Part shown: positions 8,400 through 20,345 of the stretch, piece by piece
Numbering within the stretch: the first letter of the stretch is position 1
Layout: each line of letters starts with the position of its first letter
Virus record (IMG/VR): IMGVR_UViG_3300031687_000132
Coordinates: 1 to 20,345 of that record
Direction: 5' to 3' (one strand)
Length of the DNA stretch: 20,345 nucleotides
Source of the DNA: a virus
Position numbers and translations under genes: made by a program
The notes under the pieces: generated by a model
The model's input: the letters and a program-made list of their open reading frames with translations, nothing else
Database searches by the model: none
What the model was told of the DNA's origin: nothing

Positions 8400-9068
8400 T
8401 TATTTATTGGCTAATCTGTGTAATATTTTATCCATTGTAGTTGCACCCATTTTATTGTGTACAAATTCAACTTTTTTCTTTTGAACAGATTTAGATTCAG
8501 GGTTTGCTTTAATTGAAGAAACTGCAGGCTCTAAAACTTCAGAAAATTCTTCTTTTACGGTTCTAGACTTTAAAACGTTTACCTCTTCACCAACTTTAGG
8601 CTCTTCCGGCATTTCTTCCATTTTAGATTCTTTATCACCTTTTAAATCAGCAATTGCATCTTCAAGATTTTGGATCCTTTTTTCCATACCCTTCCAATCT
8701 GCAACATCTGCTTCTTCTTCCAATTCCTTTTCGTCTTCTTTCTTTTCGTCTTCCGGATGGTCCCCTTCGTAATTTTCTTTTTCTTCTAGGTCTTCGGTAA
8801 CTTCTTCACCCTCTTTAGGTGTAGCTTCGTCTGCAACGTCTCTAATGTCTGCAATAATACCTTCTTCAGAAACAACTAATAAACGGCCATCCTCAAGAAT
8901 ATATTCTCCCACAGGCATAGCAACTTGTTGATCATCGGTAACGATAAATAATTCGCTGTCCTTTTCAAAAGAATCTGCACTAACTATAGTACCATTTTCT
9001 AACTTCATTTCTTCAAGTTTAACCTGAATGTTTAGAAGTTCTTTAATTTGATTTAATTTACTTTTCAT
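8400..9068 (-). CDS. Capsid scaffold-like acidic protein
   Basis: I choose ATG at 9068 (222 aa, MKSKLNQIKELLNIQ) over an in-frame ATG at 9161, because the longer form would overlap a well-supported 53-aa gene and because the recurrent ACCGTTATA motif stands before 9068. An N-terminal helix is followed by a compact part (LENGTIVSADSF, PVGEYILEDGRLLVVSEEGII, about residues 21-74). Then comes a highly acidic Glu/Lys/Asp coiled region (about 80-170, including GMEKRIQNLEDAIADLKGDK) and a basic C-terminus (VQKKKVEFVHNKMG). An acidic coiled middle with a basic C-terminal end, placed between protease and capsid, is the usual build of a scaffolding protein. It probably shapes the procapsid and is then removed by the protease. 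No cleavage site is claimed. Confidence 0.7.
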   Translation of the reverse strand: MKSKLNQIKELLNIQVKLEEMKLENGTIVSADSFEKDSELFIVTDDQQVAMPVGEYILEDGRLLVVSEEGIIADIRDVADEATPKEGEEVTEDLEEKENYEGDHPEDEKKEDEKELEEEADVADWKGMEKRIQNLEDAIADLKGDKESKMEEMPEEPKVGEEVNVLKSRTVKEEFSEVLEPAVSSIKANPESKSVQKKKVEFVHNKMGATTMDKILHRLANK

Positions 9069-12197: not shown

Positions 12198-14344
12198 ACC
12201 TTGTTTAATAATTCCATATCACTTTTTCCACTTTGTAGATTTGTAGTGATTGAGTTAATAATATATTTTTGTGAGTTTATTTCAAAAGTATCATTTAGTT
12301 TAAAATCAAATAATATTCTTAACGGTAAATATGATGTTACCTTGGTTATTCTCCTGCTAGAGTTAAAAACATCTATAATATATGGAGAATGATAGGCTGA
12401 AAATAAAGTGTCGCTAAACTCATTTGTTCTAGTGTATTCGTTTATTTCATTATTGAAATTTATGTTTTCTCTGCCCTGATATTGCGCACTTATATATATA
12501 CTATTTGATGGTATCGTATATCCTAATACCTGAGTAACAGTAGTTGCACTTGTAACCAATGAAATTGGAGTCATTCCTCCGATTCTATATATAGCGTAAA
12601 AAATTAAAGGTTTCCCTATGTATGGTTGTTGATTTTCATTTACAGAATAACCCCATTGAATTGTTGTGTCAACGCTACCTGTGACGTTAATTAACCTTTC
12701 GTATTTAAAATGCTCAAATGGTACTAAAACTTTATAAATCTCGGTAGAAGCATTATAATTCACACCCCCTGTTTGACCTTGTGGGTCACCTGAATAACTT
12801 AACGCTCCCCAATTGCTACCTGCTAATTGATTATGTTGTTTAGCTAAAATACTACCTGTACCCTCATATCCATAAACAATTTCATTGTAAGGTAAAGCTA
12901 CGTTTACTTTGTTTTTATTAGTATCAATAAATGAAGAAATATTATAATTTATCGGTGCATCATTTCCGCTAATATCTGAATCTGTATAATACGATAAATT
13001 CCCTGCTGCTCCATAGACAGAAGAACTATCTGCCTCTAAAGGTCTCACTACTATTGTCCCTATTTCATCTACATAAGCCACTAAATTAAACATTTTAAAC
13101 AGCCCTGTAAGAAATGACATTATAGTAACATCAGGTATTTGTTCTTTTACTAAAAAATCAAAATCGTTTGTAATCTGAAAAGAAGTTGTAGTTACTGTAT
13201 CTGTGTAAAAACTTGCGCTACCACCTTGAACAAAATAATAAACCCCGTCAAACTCCCATTCCACATTTGTGAAAGAAATAGATGCCGCTGCTGTAACAAA
13301 AATATTAAAAACTCCGTTTCCTACTAAAGCAAATTGATTTGTAAAAGTTTGGTTTCCTGAAGCACTTGTTGATTGCCAATACGGGCTTCCGTTTAAAGTT
13401 ACATTTACTACATAAGCTGTACTACTTGTAGTTGTAAAACTTAGGCTATTAGTTATAACTCTATTAGGATAGGTTAACATATCAGCAGGAGTAATAATAT
13501 TAGCGCCCGTTGATATTAAATGAGCATTCGCCGGAGAAGGTGTTGCAAAAGCAACTTGACTTGTAATAGACGCCACCTGTTGCGCAGGTTGTACTGCTCC
13601 ACTTTTACGATGTAACCACATATATAAGTTGTAAAAACTAGGATTTGATACATTGAAAAAATCTCTTGAAAAAACTATGTTAGTCGAGTAACCCTCTGCA
13701 ATGTTATACTTTGCCTCAATCTCTAAGATTAATTCATACAATCTAATAGCAAATTTTAATTGGTCCCATTTAAGCCCCTTAACCACTCCATTACTAAAAC
13801 TAACATTATTAGTTCCTGCTACGTCTTCACCTGAATTATAATAAATTCCATCCGTATGAGTAATTAATGGCGCTATGATCTTACTGTCACCAACCTCACC
13901 CATATATGATTTTATGTTTGCAGATGTATAAGGTATGCTATAATCTGAACTTGAAAAAAATAAAGAACCTAATTTATCTTCGCCTAAAATATCAGGTAAT
14001 TCTACCGTATTACCAAAGAAAGTAATATTATAAGTATGAGCAACATTGTTTTTTAATTCAACGCCTTCGAGTTTTATTCTACCTGTTTTATATGGAATTG
14101 TATTTAATTCTATTCTACCATCTTTTTTAATTCTCGCATCAAACCCCCCTACAATATCAAAATTATAATAGTGTTTAAAAATCTTATTATTTACCTTACT
14201 TGCAGGCAGCGAAAATGTTTTTGTAAACGATGTAAAAATCTTAGAAACATCTTTGACATTTTGAATTGTTTCTGTTAACGAAACGCTTTCATCTTTGAAT
14301 AAATCCAACCTTTGCCCCTCAATATACAATTGTAATTTTTGCAT
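12194..14344 (-). CDS. Large tail/baseplate-type virion protein
   Basis: A 716-residue, mostly beta protein beginning MQKLQLYIEGQRLDLFKDES. The first ~130 residues hold a dense set of features I remember from flavobacterial phage proteins of this type: SLTETIQNVKDVSKIFTSFT, FSLPASKVNNKIFKHYYNFD, GGFDARIKKDGRIELN, then an ITFFGNTVELPDILGEDKL segment. The middle (about 250-380) is Ser/Thr/Ala-rich and looks like inserted beta-sandwich material. Later a VKEQIPDVTIMSFLTGLFKMFNLVAYVDE stretch resembles hub-type regions, and the C-terminus (NDTFEINSQKYIINSITTNLQSG) is again beta. Being next to the tape measure suggests distal tail or hub function. The exact role (Dit, hub or receptor contact) is not decided by sequence. 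Confidence 0.65.
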   Translation of the reverse strand: MQKLQLYIEGQRLDLFKDESVSLTETIQNVKDVSKIFTSFTKTFSLPASKVNNKIFKHYYNFDIVGGFDARIKKDGRIELNTIPYKTGRIKLEGVELKNNVAHTYNITFFGNTVELPDILGEDKLGSLFFSSSDYSIPYTSANIKSYMGEVGDSKIIAPLITHTDGIYYNSGEDVAGTNNVSFSNGVVKGLKWDQLKFAIRLYELILEIEAKYNIAEGYSTNIVFSRDFFNVSNPSFYNLYMWLHRKSGAVQPAQQVASITSQVAFATPSPANAHLISTGANIITPADMLTYPNRVITNSLSFTTTSSTAYVVNVTLNGSPYWQSTSASGNQTFTNQFALVGNGVFNIFVTAAASISFTNVEWEFDGVYYFVQGGSASFYTDTVTTTSFQITNDFDFLVKEQIPDVTIMSFLTGLFKMFNLVAYVDEIGTIVVRPLEADSSSVYGAAGNLSYYTDSDISGNDAPINYNISSFIDTNKNKVNVALPYNEIVYGYEGTGSILAKQHNQLAGSNWGALSYSGDPQGQTGGVNYNASTEIYKVLVPFEHFKYERLINVTGSVDTTIQWGYSVNENQQPYIGKPLIFYAIYRIGGMTPISLVTSATTVTQVLGYTIPSNSIYISAQYQGRENINFNNEINEYTRTNEFSDTLFSAYHSPYIIDVFNSSRRITKVTSYLPLRILFDFKLNDTFEINSQKYIINSITTNLQSGKSDMELLNKV

Positions 14345-16401: not shown

Positions 16402-17135
16402 TTAGTTAAACTTTTTTTTCATTTGTTTGTTTTCAATCTCTGCCTTTTCTTTTTTGAAAGTAAGCATCTGCAAGCATTCGTGTATCCCTAATTTAGTGAC
16501 AAATTCAAATCTTGTAATAAGGCCGTCAGCGAGACTGTAAACTGATTGATACCACCCCCATTTTCCTGAGAATTGAGATATTTCGTCAAGGCTTCCGTTT
16601 CCTCCACCTCCAAAGAGTTCATCATAACTTGCGATAATTCCATCCCTAAATTCCACAAAAAAAAAACTGAAGATAAAACCGCATCCATTGGCATATCTAA
16701 AATATCTGCTTCGTTTCCTACTTCGTATTCTGATATACTATATTTTTCTTTCAACGTTGAAACTACCGGTCTATATAAAACATTCATTGCTCGCTCAATA
16801 TTAGGCCAATCACCGATATTATTATCTAAATCTATATATTCCCCTAGACTCATATTATCTAGCCCTGTATGGAAGCCGTAATCGGTCCCGTTTAATTCAA
16901 ATCTAGTAACTAAAGCAGGTTTTTGTTCAAATAGTTTTGAAATCATTTCTACAATTTCATCTACAGCATTGACTTCTAATTTCATTACCTCTGCTAATTT
17001 AAGAGAACAAAAAATCTCGACCATTTTAGCATTCATAAAGTTATCGCTCTTAACGTCTTCAGAAATTTTAAGAAAGTGTTTATACTGTCTTAAAGTAATC
17101 TCGCTTAGTGATGTTGGAATTTTTACCTTTATCAT
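16402..17135 (-). CDS. Tail assembly chaperone, -1 frameshift product (GT-type)
   Basis: A -1 slip at the T tract (16659-16665) would join residues 1-159 of the upstream chaperone frame to a second open frame ending at 16402, giving about 244 residues. The new C-terminal part contains a Gly-rich linker (FGGGGNGSLDE), then FSGKWGWYQSVYSLADG, FEFVTKLGIHECLQMLTFKKEK and a basic end. KWGW...HECL is the sort of conserved signature expected of a real domain, and the frame has no start of its own except GTG. The geometry is canonical: 0-frame codons TTT TTT preceded by T, then TTG. As in lambda G/GT, the short form would coat the tape measure and the long form would recruit tube protein. No clear downstream pseudoknot was found. 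Confidence 0.75.
16488..17135 (-). CDS. Tail assembly chaperone, 0-frame product (G-type)
   Basis: A 215-residue, mostly helical acidic protein beginning MIKVKIPTSLSEITLRQYKHFLK. It has a TDYGFHTGLDNMSLGEYIDLD segment (about 84-104), then ALNVLYRP-like NVLYRPVV (118-125), the VFFLWNLG stretch at 157-164 where the slip site lies, and a Ser/Asn-rich C-terminus. It is the first gene after the cassette terminator and opens the tail module. The 0-frame continues 56 codons past the slip site, overlapping the -1 frame by about 170 nt; both frames look coding. It presumably binds the tape measure during tail assembly. The start at 17135 is preceded by the ACGTTATA motif. Confidence 0.75.
   Translation of the reverse strand: MIKVKIPTSLSEITLRQYKHFLKISEDVKSDNFMNAKMVEIFCSLKLAEVMKLEVNAVDEIVEMISKLFEQKPALVTRFELNGTDYGFHTGLDNMSLGEYIDLDNNIGDWPNIERAMNVLYRPVVSTLKEKYSISEYEVGNEADILDMPMDAVLSSVFFLWNLGMELSQVMMNSLEVEETEALTKYLNSQENGGGINQFTVSLTALLQDLNLSLN
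16659..16665 (-). promoter_or_regulatory. Slippery heptamer T TTT TTT for -1 frameshift
   Basis: The minus strand reads G, ten T, G (16667-16656). In the 0 frame this is GTT TTT TTT TTG, giving the canonical T_TTT_TTT heptamer. A slip back by one base continues as TTT GTG GAA TTT AGG, which is open for 84 further codons. The ten-T tract could also allow polymerase slippage. Confidence 0.75.
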
Positions 17136-17707: not shown

Positions 17708-17715
17708 TCTGTTTT
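17708..17715 (-). promoter_or_regulatory. AAAACAGA leader element, 4 nt before ATG
   Basis: AAAACAGA lies exactly 4 nt before the ATG at 17703. The same 8-mer is at the same distance before two other cassette genes (18176-18183, 18329-18336) and was not seen before other genes of the window. It may be a translation-start element. Confidence 0.5.
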
Positions 17716-17742: not shown

Positions 17743-17774
17743 TCAATATAGTGAAAATAAACGTTATAAACAAA
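17743..17774 (-). promoter_or_regulatory. Promoter-like element for the 102-aa gene
   Basis: TTTG (17774-17771), a 20-nt spacer and TATATTGA (17750-17743) approximate the Bacteroidota consensus TTTG / TAnnTTTG, with two mismatches in the -7 box. The -33 box lies inside a 24-bp palindrome, in the same arrangement as the better promoter at 18347-18378. The implied start is about 30 nt before the ATG. Confidence 0.5.
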
Positions 17775-17786
17775 TTATTTGATAAC
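17763..17786. repeat. 24-bp palindromic operator-like repeat, copy 2
   Basis: GTTAT-N14-ATAAC, identical to copy 1 (18367-18390) at 20 of 24 positions; a further 7 bases on its promoter-distal side also match. It covers the -33 box of the adjacent promoter, so a bound repressor or activator could control the gene at 17703. Confidence 0.65.
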
Positions 17787-17793
17787 TATTTTT

Positions 17794-17913
17794 TATTTAT
17801 TTACCTTCGTTAAGATTACGTGAGTAATATGTACCCTTATAAAAAGTGATGCAGCCATACCTTAAACCTGCGACAGTATTATCAGTCAGCTACACCTACT
17901 TAAATTAATTTTA
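17794..17913. other. Intergenic stretch, less AT-rich, no supported gene
   Basis: Between the 85-aa gene and the second operator lie about 120 nt, of which roughly 17815-17897 is visibly richer in G+C than the flanks. It holds a small perfect inverted repeat (ATTAC-GTGA-GTAAT, 17815-17828) and only a 21-codon minus-strand ORF from an ATG near 17856, which has no supporting feature. No good terminator was found for the upstream gene. It could hold a leader or small RNA. Confidence 0.4.
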
Positions 17914-18171
17914 TTAGTTTTCCTCCGGTCTTAAATATTCATCCATTAAATCCAATGCAAATTCATCCATTAAAGTTTCTTCATTATTGGTTAAAGGCCT
18001 GCAGGAAATAGTTGTAATAAATAAAGAATCTTCTCGACATTCAGAAATACCACAAATTTTTGCTTCAATCTCGTAAATGTTTAAATAGCCATTTTTTAAA
18101 TGGGTCAATTTATAAGTTAAATAAATCCCGTTTTCTTTTAGTAATTCTACTGTTGTTTTTTCGTTACTCAT
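17914..18171 (-). CDS. Acidic 85-aa protein of unknown function
   Basis: MSNEKTTVELLKENGIYLTY opens a probable beta-strand-rich N-terminal half (YKLTHLKNGYLNIYEIEAKI). Three Cys follow (C40, C45, C57) with SLFITTIS, and an acidic helical C-terminus ends it (LMDEFALDLMDEYLRPEEN). No family is recognised. It follows the 45-aa Cys-rich gene by 15 nt and carries the AAAACAGA-N4-ATG leader, so it is probably co-transcribed from the promoter at 18347-18378. Small size, acidity and unrelatedness to virion proteins point to an accessory role, for example binding a host factor; this is inference. Confidence 0.66.
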   Translation of the reverse strand: MSNEKTTVELLKENGIYLTYKLTHLKNGYLNIYEIEAKICGISECREDSLFITTISCRPLTNNEETLMDEFALDLMDEYLRPEEN

Positions 18172-18175
18172 AATG

Positions 18176-18183
18176 TCTGTTTT
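18176..18183 (-). promoter_or_regulatory. AAAACAGA leader element, 4 nt before ATG
   Basis: AAAACAGA lies exactly 4 nt before the ATG at 18171, in the 15-nt gap after the upstream gene, and so is inside the transcript. This location favours a translational over a promoter role for the shared motif. Confidence 0.5.
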
Positions 18184-18186
18184 TAT

Positions 18187-18324
18187 TTATTTTATTTCCG
18201 GTAGCCCGAAAGAATTAATTTCTATTTTTAGGTCCAAAGGTATTCCGCAATCTTCGCCTTCGCAGCAAAAATTATCTTCGTGGTTTTCCCATTCGCATAC
18301 CTCGCATTTAATTGTATTTTTCAT
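18187..18324 (-). CDS. Cys-rich acidic 45-aa protein
   Basis: ATG at 18324 to TAA at 18187. The product begins MKNTIKCEVCEWENHEDNFC and has C7-x2-C10, H15, then C20, C21 and C26 (CCEGEDC), followed by a short hydrophobic/acidic tail. The CxxC...CC...C spacing suggests a compact zinc-binding knuckle. It has about 11 acidic residues against 4 Lys. This is the first gene after the large terminase and stands behind the best Bacteroidota-type promoter of the window, with a leader of only about 16 nt that contains AAAACAGA. No family is recognised; metal binding is inferred. Confidence 0.66.
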   Translation of the reverse strand: MKNTIKCEVCEWENHEDNFCCEGEDCGIPLDLKIEINSFGLPEIK

Positions 18325-18328
18325 TTGA

Positions 18329-18336
18329 TCTGTTTT
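18329..18336 (-). promoter_or_regulatory. AAAACAGA leader element, 4 nt before ATG
   Basis: Same 8-mer at the same 4-nt distance from the ATG (18324) as in the two other cassette genes. With the predicted transcription start near 18340 it would be near the 5' end of the message. Confidence 0.5.
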
Positions 18337-18346
18337 ATGTTCTTCA

Positions 18347-18378
18347 CAAATGTAATGCTTTTATTAGTTATACACAAA
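18347..18378 (-). promoter_or_regulatory. Bacteroidota-type promoter for the small-gene cassette
   Basis: TTTG (18378-18375), a 20-nt spacer and TACATTTG (18354-18347) match the Bacteroidota primary sigma consensus (-33 TTTG, -7 TAnnTTTG) at every defined position. The -33 box is inside a 24-bp palindrome. It lies just after the large terminase stop and drives the 45-aa and 85-aa genes. Recognition by the host sigma factor suggests expression independent of the late programme. Confidence 0.72.
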
Positions 18379-18390
18379 TATATTGATAAC
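18367..18390. repeat. 24-bp palindromic operator-like repeat, copy 1
   Basis: GTTAT-N14-ATAAC with the -33 box inside. Copy 2 at 17763-17786 has 20 of 24 identical bases; 7 more bases (18391-18397) match and run into the stop codon of the large terminase gene. Likely a binding site for a dimeric regulator that is not encoded in this window. Confidence 0.65.
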
Positions 18391-18395
18391 TATTT

Positions 18396-19559
18396 TTAAT
18401 GTAATGCGTATTTTCCAAAGTTTGGCTTGCTTAAAATAGAATATGCAGCATAACGACAGGGATCGATTATATGATTGTTTTTGTCTTCCGGAATATTTAG
18501 AAGCATTCCGCTTTTATCTTCTTTCCATTTGTAATTTCTAAATTCCATAATTGCATTTGTAGAATCTTTTAATACGTGTAATTTATATCTTTTCAATAAA
18601 TCAATTCCTGCATTAATACTATCTTTTCCTTTTGTGCTTGGGAAAATATTAAAACCCATTCTGCGAAGTTCTGCAATTAAACGAGGTTCTGCGGAATCTG
18701 CATAAATTGGATTTGATTCTAGTTTTTCATTTCTTAAAAATGATGCAATATCATTGGTAGTCATTTGCGTTCTGTAAAGGTGTTCTTTTACATACATATT
18801 ATTGCCCCAAATATAAATTGAAACGAGTGAAGTCGGATCATTAGAGTACCCAAAATCCATTCCATAAGAAAGTAAATAAGCCTCATCCGGAATAACATTT
18901 ACTTCTACATATTGAAAAATTGTGCTTCTACTTGCTGATCTCTCACCTAAACCATAAATTTGCCAATACTGCTCATCTGTATCTTTTAAGAGTTCAATCT
19001 CTTTTATTATAGATTCTTCTATAAATGGATTGTCTAGGTAAGTAGTTTTAAAAAAGTCACAGTCATCTCTAGTGATTAATTTATCATAAATCCAATGAAA
19101 CTCATCTGATGGATTAAAGTCTAATATTATCCGGTCCTGAGTTCTGAATAATAATTGTTGCATATCTTCATAATACAATTCATTACCTTCATTAACAAAC
19201 AGTAAATCCCTTTTCCGGCCCCTAATTTTCTGCGGTTGATCCAAAGATATAAATTCAACTAAATTGCCAAATAAGCTATATTCTGAATTTGATTTATTAT
19301 GCGCTATTTCTGAGTAACAATTATACTCTTGAAGTATTGTTATAAAATCCCTCATTACTGTAGCACGTAAACTAGGAAAAGATTTTCTACAAATTGTTAC
19401 TACTTTATTTTTATTTAAAGAACAGTATTTAAAAATTATCCACAATAAAATATTGTAGGTTTTTCCGGACCTTGTTCCGCCCTGCTCAACAACAATTTTT
19501 GCTGAAGAATTATCTAAATGTTTGAAAACCTTATTGGTTTGAATCTTCGGTCTTATCAA
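18396..19559 (-). CDS. terL: Terminase large subunit
   Basis: A 387-residue packaging motor of the PBSX/terminase_3 type. The ATPase domain shows Walker A GGTRSGKT (27-34), a KIRGRKRDLLFVNE stretch with the Walker B and catalytic Glu (119-124), and a coupling-type LDFNP motif (146-150). The nuclease domain shows the three acidic positions expected of an RNase H fold: D235 in YGMDFGYSNDPTS, D288 in IYADSAEP and D366 in HIIDPCRYA. It powers DNA translocation into the procapsid through the portal and cuts the concatemer. The start overlaps the small terminase gene by 29 nt, and MIRPKIQTNKVFKHL is a normal N-terminus for the family. The length is slightly short but complete. The stop abuts the palindromic operator of the next unit. 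Confidence 0.96.
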   Translation of the reverse strand: MIRPKIQTNKVFKHLDNSSAKIVVEQGGTRSGKTYNILLWIIFKYCSLNKNKVVTICRKSFPSLRATVMRDFITILQEYNCYSEIAHNKSNSEYSLFGNLVEFISLDQPQKIRGRKRDLLFVNEGNELYYEDMQQLLFRTQDRIILDFNPSDEFHWIYDKLITRDDCDFFKTTYLDNPFIEESIIKEIELLKDTDEQYWQIYGLGERSASRSTIFQYVEVNVIPDEAYLLSYGMDFGYSNDPTSLVSIYIWGNNMYVKEHLYRTQMTTNDIASFLRNEKLESNPIYADSAEPRLIAELRRMGFNIFPSTKGKDSINAGIDLLKRYKLHVLKDSTNAIMEFRNYKWKEDKSGMLLNIPEDKNNHIIDPCRYAAYSILSKPNFGKYALH

Positions 19560-20060: not shown

Positions 20061-20345
20061 TTATATTTTTAAAATCTGTCCGCATTTATCGCAGGTTTCT
20101 TTATTTTCTTCAACTTCTTTTATTTTTTCTTCTTCTAGATCACCTTCAAATGGAAATCCCTGAAGGCCCCAATCTTCCAAATCTTTACGATCCCAATCAT
20201 TTGCTAATACGTCCCAATCCCACTCACCGAAGTGTTCATTGTCTTTTATAACAAATTCCTTGATTTGAGCATCATTTAAGCCAACAGCAGACAAAACCGG
20301 TATGGTTTTATATCCTAATTCCACAACGGCCTTAAACCTCATATT
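20061..20345 (-). CDS. ParB-like nuclease-domain protein, C-terminal part
   Basis: The frame is open to the window edge (codon AAT before the Met at 20342), so this is the 94-residue C-terminal part of a longer gene. It shows MRFKAVVELGYKTIPVLSAVGL then AQIKEFVIKDNEHFGEWDWDVLAN, the end of a ParB/Srx-type N-terminal domain as found in phage and plasmid proteins that regulate or modify DNA, often fused to an adenine methylase. Here no methylase follows: the protein ends after an acidic linker with TCDKCGQILKI, half of a zinc ribbon. It lies directly before the terminase genes, a common place for such proteins in phages. The role (packaging-site marking, DNA binding or regulation) is inferred. 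Confidence 0.75.
   Translation of the reverse strand, partial: NMRFKAVVELGYKTIPVLSAVGLNDAQIKEFVIKDNEHFGEWDWDVLANDWDRKDLEDWGLQGFPFEGDLEEEKIKEVEENKETCDKCGQILKI

Follow-up and report, generated by a model that had tools for sequence, protein, structure and literature searches.

Two 24-bp palindromes in a stretch of viral DNA, a 20,345-base IMG/VR virus record that was analyzed over its whole length (the window), each cover the -33 box of a promoter, and we consider it fairly likely that they are the operators of a phage-encoded regulator that combines a DnaA domain IV and a helical tail, lacks the ATPase and is probably a repressor. The pattern GTTAT-N14-ATAAC matched exactly twice in the window and not at all in 100 dinucleotide shuffles, and both palindromes of the original prediction are present where it had placed them (Table 1). 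Its figures for the identity of the two copies, 20/24 and, with the flank included, 27/31, were borne out when read from the sequence. Of the claim that a -7 box lies 20 nt beyond TTTG, the spacing held in both copies, but the second -7 box is imperfect, with 4/6 conserved letters. Measured against the published Bacteroidetes promoter, TTTG and TANNTTTG (PMC6847099), the sigma-ABfr promoter pattern with a spacing of N19-21 was found at both places, with scores of 10/10 for promoter 1 and 8/10 for promoter 2, the lower score being due to this imperfect -7 box. PMC6847099 places the last G of the -7 box at -5 (F. johnsoniae numbering). On that scale the palindrome extends from -48 to -25, and promoter 1, provided that the scale applies here, is predicted to start near 18342. 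Both promoters point along the minus strand, as do the recognizable window genes, whose order is ParB-like, small and large terminase, small ORFs and larger ORFs. Operator 1 begins 6 nt past the last base of the stop codon of the large terminase gene (terL). The half-sites look like DnaA boxes. A perfect one, TTATACACA, lies in the right half of operator 1 (18368-18376, plus strand), operator 2 is one base off TTATNCACA, and as a DnaA box the left half-site is poor. A further perfect DnaA box, TTATCCACA, is located at 19436-19444, within the large terminase gene.

Table 1. Positions of the operators, promoter boxes and neighboring genes in the window.
Feature	Position	Strand	Basis or remark
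ParB-like gene, 3' part, cut by window end	20061..20345	-	
Large terminase subunit (terL)	18396..19559	-	Terminase_3 1.7e-23; operator 1 after its stop, as in many relatives
Operator 1, palindrome GTTATCAA-TATATTTG-TGTATAAC	18367..18390	-	sequence, pattern scan, promoter map
-33 box TTTG inside operator 1	18375..18378	-	sequence; promoter score 10/10, N20
-7 box TACATTTG, promoter 1	18347..18354	-	20 nt after TTTG
First ORF behind promoter 1, 45 aa	18187..18324	-	no PHROG or Pfam match
Second ORF behind promoter 1, 85 aa	17914..18171	-	no PHROG or Pfam match
Operator 2, palindrome GTTATCAA-ATAATTTG-TTTATAAC, right half TTATAAACA	17763..17786	-	sequence, pattern scan, promoter map
-33 box TTTG inside operator 2	17771..17774	-	sequence
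-7 box TATATTGA, promoter 2, imperfect	17743..17750	-	20 nt after TTTG
First ORF behind promoter 2, 102 aa	17395..17703	-	no PHROG or Pfam match

A complete relative, the 30,856-base contig G007, is 99.94% identical to the window across 19,342 bases, and since the window bridges both ends of G007, the genome map is circular. G007 contains both window sites (at 13470 and 14074) and two more, one at 8418 (13/14) and a weaker copy (12/14) at about 4031, at the early promoter directly after ninG. The relaxed box TTATNMACA occurs seven times in its 30.9 kb, and four of these are at the four promoters. Two sites, the number first proposed, is therefore an undercount, as phage contigs carry two to four. 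Two other features of the window were seen along the way. Overlapping ORFs of 215 aa and 84 aa (16402-17135) lie beside an A/T run near 16656-16668 and could represent a programmed frameshift, and many start codons come after a leader motif, AAACAGA, both in the window (17708-17714 and 18329-18336, minus strand) and in related contigs. An ATG follows within 9 nt in 108 of 353 coding-strand copies of this motif versus 5 of 60 on the other strand; the motif is a possible translation signal in a group without Shine-Dalgarno sites.

The conservation of the operator was examined around the large terminase gene. A terminase scan gave at least 593 relatives among 599 candidate stretches, of which the best 80 were kept, and in 72 of these 80 loci the first 100 nt or so after terL include a promoter; four were too short and four had no promoter scoring at least 8/10. 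These 72 promoters, sampled by their promoter boxes with the palindrome unused, were reduced to 57 distinct ones, in which the left half-site STTRTNAA was in place in 39, the right in 33, both in 28 and neither in 13. In relatives the element is longer, STTATNAA-N8-TTNATAAS, and its outer letters showed no G/C covariation among the 28 promoters with both half-sites (11 G..G, 10 G..C). In 37 related sequences (775 kb), a set that leans to carriers because it was hand-picked from terminase, operator or DnaA-domain search matches, the operator pattern with up to 2 mismatches gave 69 matches versus 2 for the reversed pattern, and in related phage DNA there were 41 element matches versus none for the control. 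Together with the shuffles, these counts rule out a chance repeat. Among the 17 of the 37 sequences with a contig map, an in-register site was found after terL in 14 and before the exonuclease/DnaA-like genes in 11. With a symmetric 14-letter score, 45 sites versus 3 in the control reached 13-14/14, and 71 versus 61 scored 12/14; since the latter is no better than the control, only 13-14/14 sites, or 12/14 sites with an in-register promoter, were relied on. Counted in the 153 nt behind a gene, the relaxed box was present for terL in 23 of 31 sequences and for the HJ-like gene in 21 of 24, the background elsewhere being 0.025 per 153 nt. The site overlaps the -33 box in the promoter after terL and in the one ahead of the regulator gene run. 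At the early promoter it is weak, with the relaxed box in 6 of 23 sequences, and lies between the -33 and -7 boxes, reaching the -7 box, in G007, G015 and G030 (12/14), several other copies being weaker.

The strict composite matched 7 times in a 257-Gb genome collection, against at least 120 viral stretches, and this is what was found of the random genome matches without promoters that the original prediction had named as evidence against itself. In these 7 matches the -7 box was never better than 4/6 letters by eye (L114 reaches 4). In 60 flavobacterial genomes the element was at chance level, with 17 matches versus 23 for the reversed control. An origin of the element in host chromosomes is ruled out by these two scans. 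The comparative evidence thus favors the original suggestion of co-regulated promoters under one palindrome-binding regulator. No regulator had been named at that time; the candidate proposed here is the DnaA-domain-IV protein.

The gene run behind the 8418 site of G007 encodes a protein of 183 aa that matches Bac_DnaA_C (PF08299) with 33.8 bits, the cut-off being 31.5, and its best profile match to DnaA is 5e-8. The gene lies directly upstream of the ParB-like gene, outside the window (L091:10776-11327). PF08299 was found in 26 of 30 related viral records (E<=0.01), in 8 of them above the Pfam cut-off, and a DnaA-domain gene was present in 42 of 46 terL loci with at least 3 kb upstream, as well as in 37 of 47 stretches of at least 10 kb that had been fetched by the operator pattern alone. 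Of the four terL loci without such a gene nearby, two (L040 and L075) nevertheless have the operator. AlphaFold2, using 58 relatives, predicted a confident N-terminal domain followed by a helical tail (pLDDT 85.8), and this model matched 1j1v, DnaA domain IV on DnaA-box DNA, with Z 12.2 and rmsd 2.3 over 89 residues, compared to Z 4.5 for the first structural match other than DnaA. R26 is invariant among the 58 proteins and H65 is present in at least 90%, and they align with E. coli R399 and H434, an Arg and a His described as box-reading residues of E. coli DnaA (PMC5742627, PMC5043019). The position of E. coli Thr435, in the helix 434-451 signature, is often Ala in the phage proteins. Bac_DnaA_C was the only Pfam domain in the 183 aa, the helical tail taking the place of further domains, and because the AAA+ ATPase domain III is missing, the protein is not a DnaA initiator. 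The pairing of protein and site has exceptions: the L074 protein lacks the conserved His and its palindrome persists with one extra base, and the same type of DnaA domain occurs with differing right half-sites (L018, L019 and L025 versus L008 and L021).

If the protein reads the palindrome, operator and protein are expected to diverge together. From 45 loci with both promoter and gene, 42 distinct ones were used for partial Mantel tests, in which operator divergence followed that of the DnaA domain when terL was held constant (r 0.337, p 0.0012), and did not follow that of terL, the neighbor gene of the operator, when the DnaA domain was held constant (r -0.064, p 0.73). The opposite was the case for the control, the 28 nt that follow the -7 box (DnaA domain, r 0.001, p 0.48; terL, r 0.138, p 0.0097). 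The signal holds against the small terminase gene (p 0.0005), the exonuclease (p 0.010) and ParB (p 0.002), although ParB divergence has a weak independent signal of its own (r 0.245, p 0.044) and the remaining spacer plus -7 box also leans to the DnaA domain (r 0.160, p 0.034). It is partly carried by one DnaA-domain subtype, some of whose promoters have tandem boxes, and leaving out subtype II (5 of the 42 loci) reduced it to r 0.221 (p 0.041). In the 17 larger contigs, where the promoter picks for G021 and G037 (of 25) look wrong, the correlation was not significant (r 0.22-0.26, p 0.09-0.13). We regard the co-divergence as supportive, not decisive, evidence for a pairing of this protein with the operator. 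As a separate observation, the palindrome after terL is replaced by a tandem TTGTNTATATGTTRATAA in L007, L013, L017, L027 and L041, and L013, L027 and L041, the tandem-box loci with the gene in their contig, encode a distinct DnaA-domain subtype (GPSAIS...RTQPKL).

The main rival, or partner, of the DnaA-domain regulator is a phage ECF-like sigma factor. G007 encodes, among its early genes and outside the window (L091:6285-6770), a protein of 161 aa that is conserved in 26 of the 37 related sequences. It has no significant Pfam or PHROG match of its own and none in a PDB profile search; Pfam Sigma70_r2 was weakly found in 3 of 9 such proteins, and its model matches ECF sigma factors, which fill the leading Foldseek rows (best E 5.6e-4). 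This sigma-like protein could drive the later promoters. The conserved block might be an extended core promoter contacted by RNA polymerase through the host sigma-ABfr or this phage sigma, with no separate regulator. The block is AT-rich and the TTTG and -7 boxes fit the consensus at N19-21, which speaks for this explanation, but sigma region 4 makes a contact narrower than 24 bp, which the block of about 24 bp, from -48 to -25, exceeds. Moreover, the palindrome is found in another register on the early promoters of G007, G015 and G030, host genomes having the same host sigma show no enrichment, and the F. johnsoniae promoters described in PMC6847099 have little motif at -33. The divergence of the sigma-like protein did not track that of the operator in a single test of low power (r 0.127, p 0.25, n=17). 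Taking this together, we consider an extended core promoter unlikely.

Host DnaA itself might read the boxes and couple phage transcription to the replication state of the host. DnaA is known as a transcription factor on box pairs (PMC11317965), and operator 1 has a perfect DnaA box in its right half. However, when the 80 loci were reduced to 67 distinct terL-downstream segments of at least 80 nt, the strict TTATNCACA was present in 6 and absent from 61, and the operator co-varies with the phage protein, which makes this explanation highly improbable. Three promoters after terL (L014, L036 and L037) contain a half-site that is a perfect DnaA box (TTATGCACA or TTATCCACA) and, from their sequence, are candidates for reading by host DnaA. 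We also think it very unlikely that the sites are replication loading points, with the DnaA-domain protein as initiator and the promoters doubling as origins: the gene adjoins the exonuclease and ParB-like genes and proteins of cultured flavophages are annotated as DnaA or replication initiation protein DnaA (PMC4615864), but the two to four sites genome-wide are single, each locked to promoter boxes, and form no repeat cluster. That the window merely contains a duplicated promoter, without regulatory meaning, would agree with the 27/31 identity of the copies, but dozens of diverged phages have kept this element, and at the same gene borders, and we give this idea hardly any credence.

In the mechanism that we prefer, the DnaA-domain protein would bind as a dimer, with one copy of domain IV, a helix-turn-helix that in DnaA binds the DnaA box, on each half-site (STTATNAA, in places a perfect TTATNCACA). 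Its targets would be the operators over the -33 box of two promoters, the one downstream of terL and that of its own operon, and in some phages also the weaker copy between the boxes of the early promoter. Since the promoter boxes would be covered and RNA polymerase blocked, repression is the most likely outcome, and activation is possible. The regulator would then exert negative feedback on its own operon, and we infer that it also influences the timing of phage transcription.

Dimeric repressors of the lambda Cro/CI type bind palindromic operators that lie over promoter boxes, with several per genome and the regulator gene inside the regulon. The phages studied here share this arrangement of palindrome, operators and, with the candidate gene, regulator, but their DNA-binding domain is unrelated, and neither an integrase nor a lambda-type repressor was recognized in G007. 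With E. coli DnaA the phage protein shares the domain IV fold, the conserved Arg and His contacts, the TTAT-type boxes and their occurrence in pairs, two to a functional site (PMC11317965, PMC5742627). Unlike E. coli DnaA, it has no AAA+ domain and its proposed boxes lie over promoter boxes; these 9-mers are inverted and separated by 4 bp, whereas the E. coli pairs are 2-3 bp apart and modelled as tandem (PMC11317965). Bac_DnaA_C on TnpA-REP transposases is a described case of domain IV re-used outside DnaA (PMC6006769), but there it is fused to a transposase, and the flanking repeats are unlike DnaA boxes (PMC6006769). Small DnaA-domain-IV-like proteins also occur in four cultured flavophages, Polaribacter phage P12002L, Olleya phage Harreka_1, Leeuwenhoekiella phage Arctus_1 and Cellulophaga phage Nekkels_1, and two of these four are annotated as DnaA. 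In contrast to the phages studied here, no promoter-linked palindrome of this type was seen in the stretches scanned (Arctus_1, 22.2 of 42.7 kb; Harreka_1, 38.0 of 43.2 kb; Nekkels_1, 21.1 of 53.4 kb; P12002L, 48.0 of 48.7 kb), where site counts were near the reversed control; an operator scan of the whole of Arctus_1 gave one palindromic place versus one in the control. Against cultured phages, blastn gave no match and tblastn with the DnaA-domain protein one weak record, and tblastn with a more canonical relative gave 42 records.

That DnaA is a transcription factor on box pairs and that phages have annotated DnaA-like proteins was known already (PMC11317965, PMC4615864); a phage DnaA-like protein joined to phage promoters was not found in the open-licence literature searched. 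The phages belong to a little-studied group infecting marine bacteria and have a palindromic switch on their main promoters. This offers a regulatory code that can be put to the test in an abundant group of uncultivated phages. The data suggest that phages have taken the DNA-reading domain of DnaA, the protein with which bacteria initiate replication of their chromosome, and made it a stand-alone regulator. Annotations usually call phage proteins of this kind replication proteins, and the link to an operator changes which test should come first. In Flavobacteriia, operator and protein could together be used as a regulated promoter. A more far-reaching version, which we hold to be rather improbable, is that the few operons of the phage have the detached domain IV as their master regulator and that host DnaA competes with this domain at the same promoters, as some operators contain perfect DnaA boxes. 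If this were true, the DnaA box would be the operator code of a whole marine flavobacterial phage lineage, and competition by host DnaA would tie phage gene expression to the replication state of the host.
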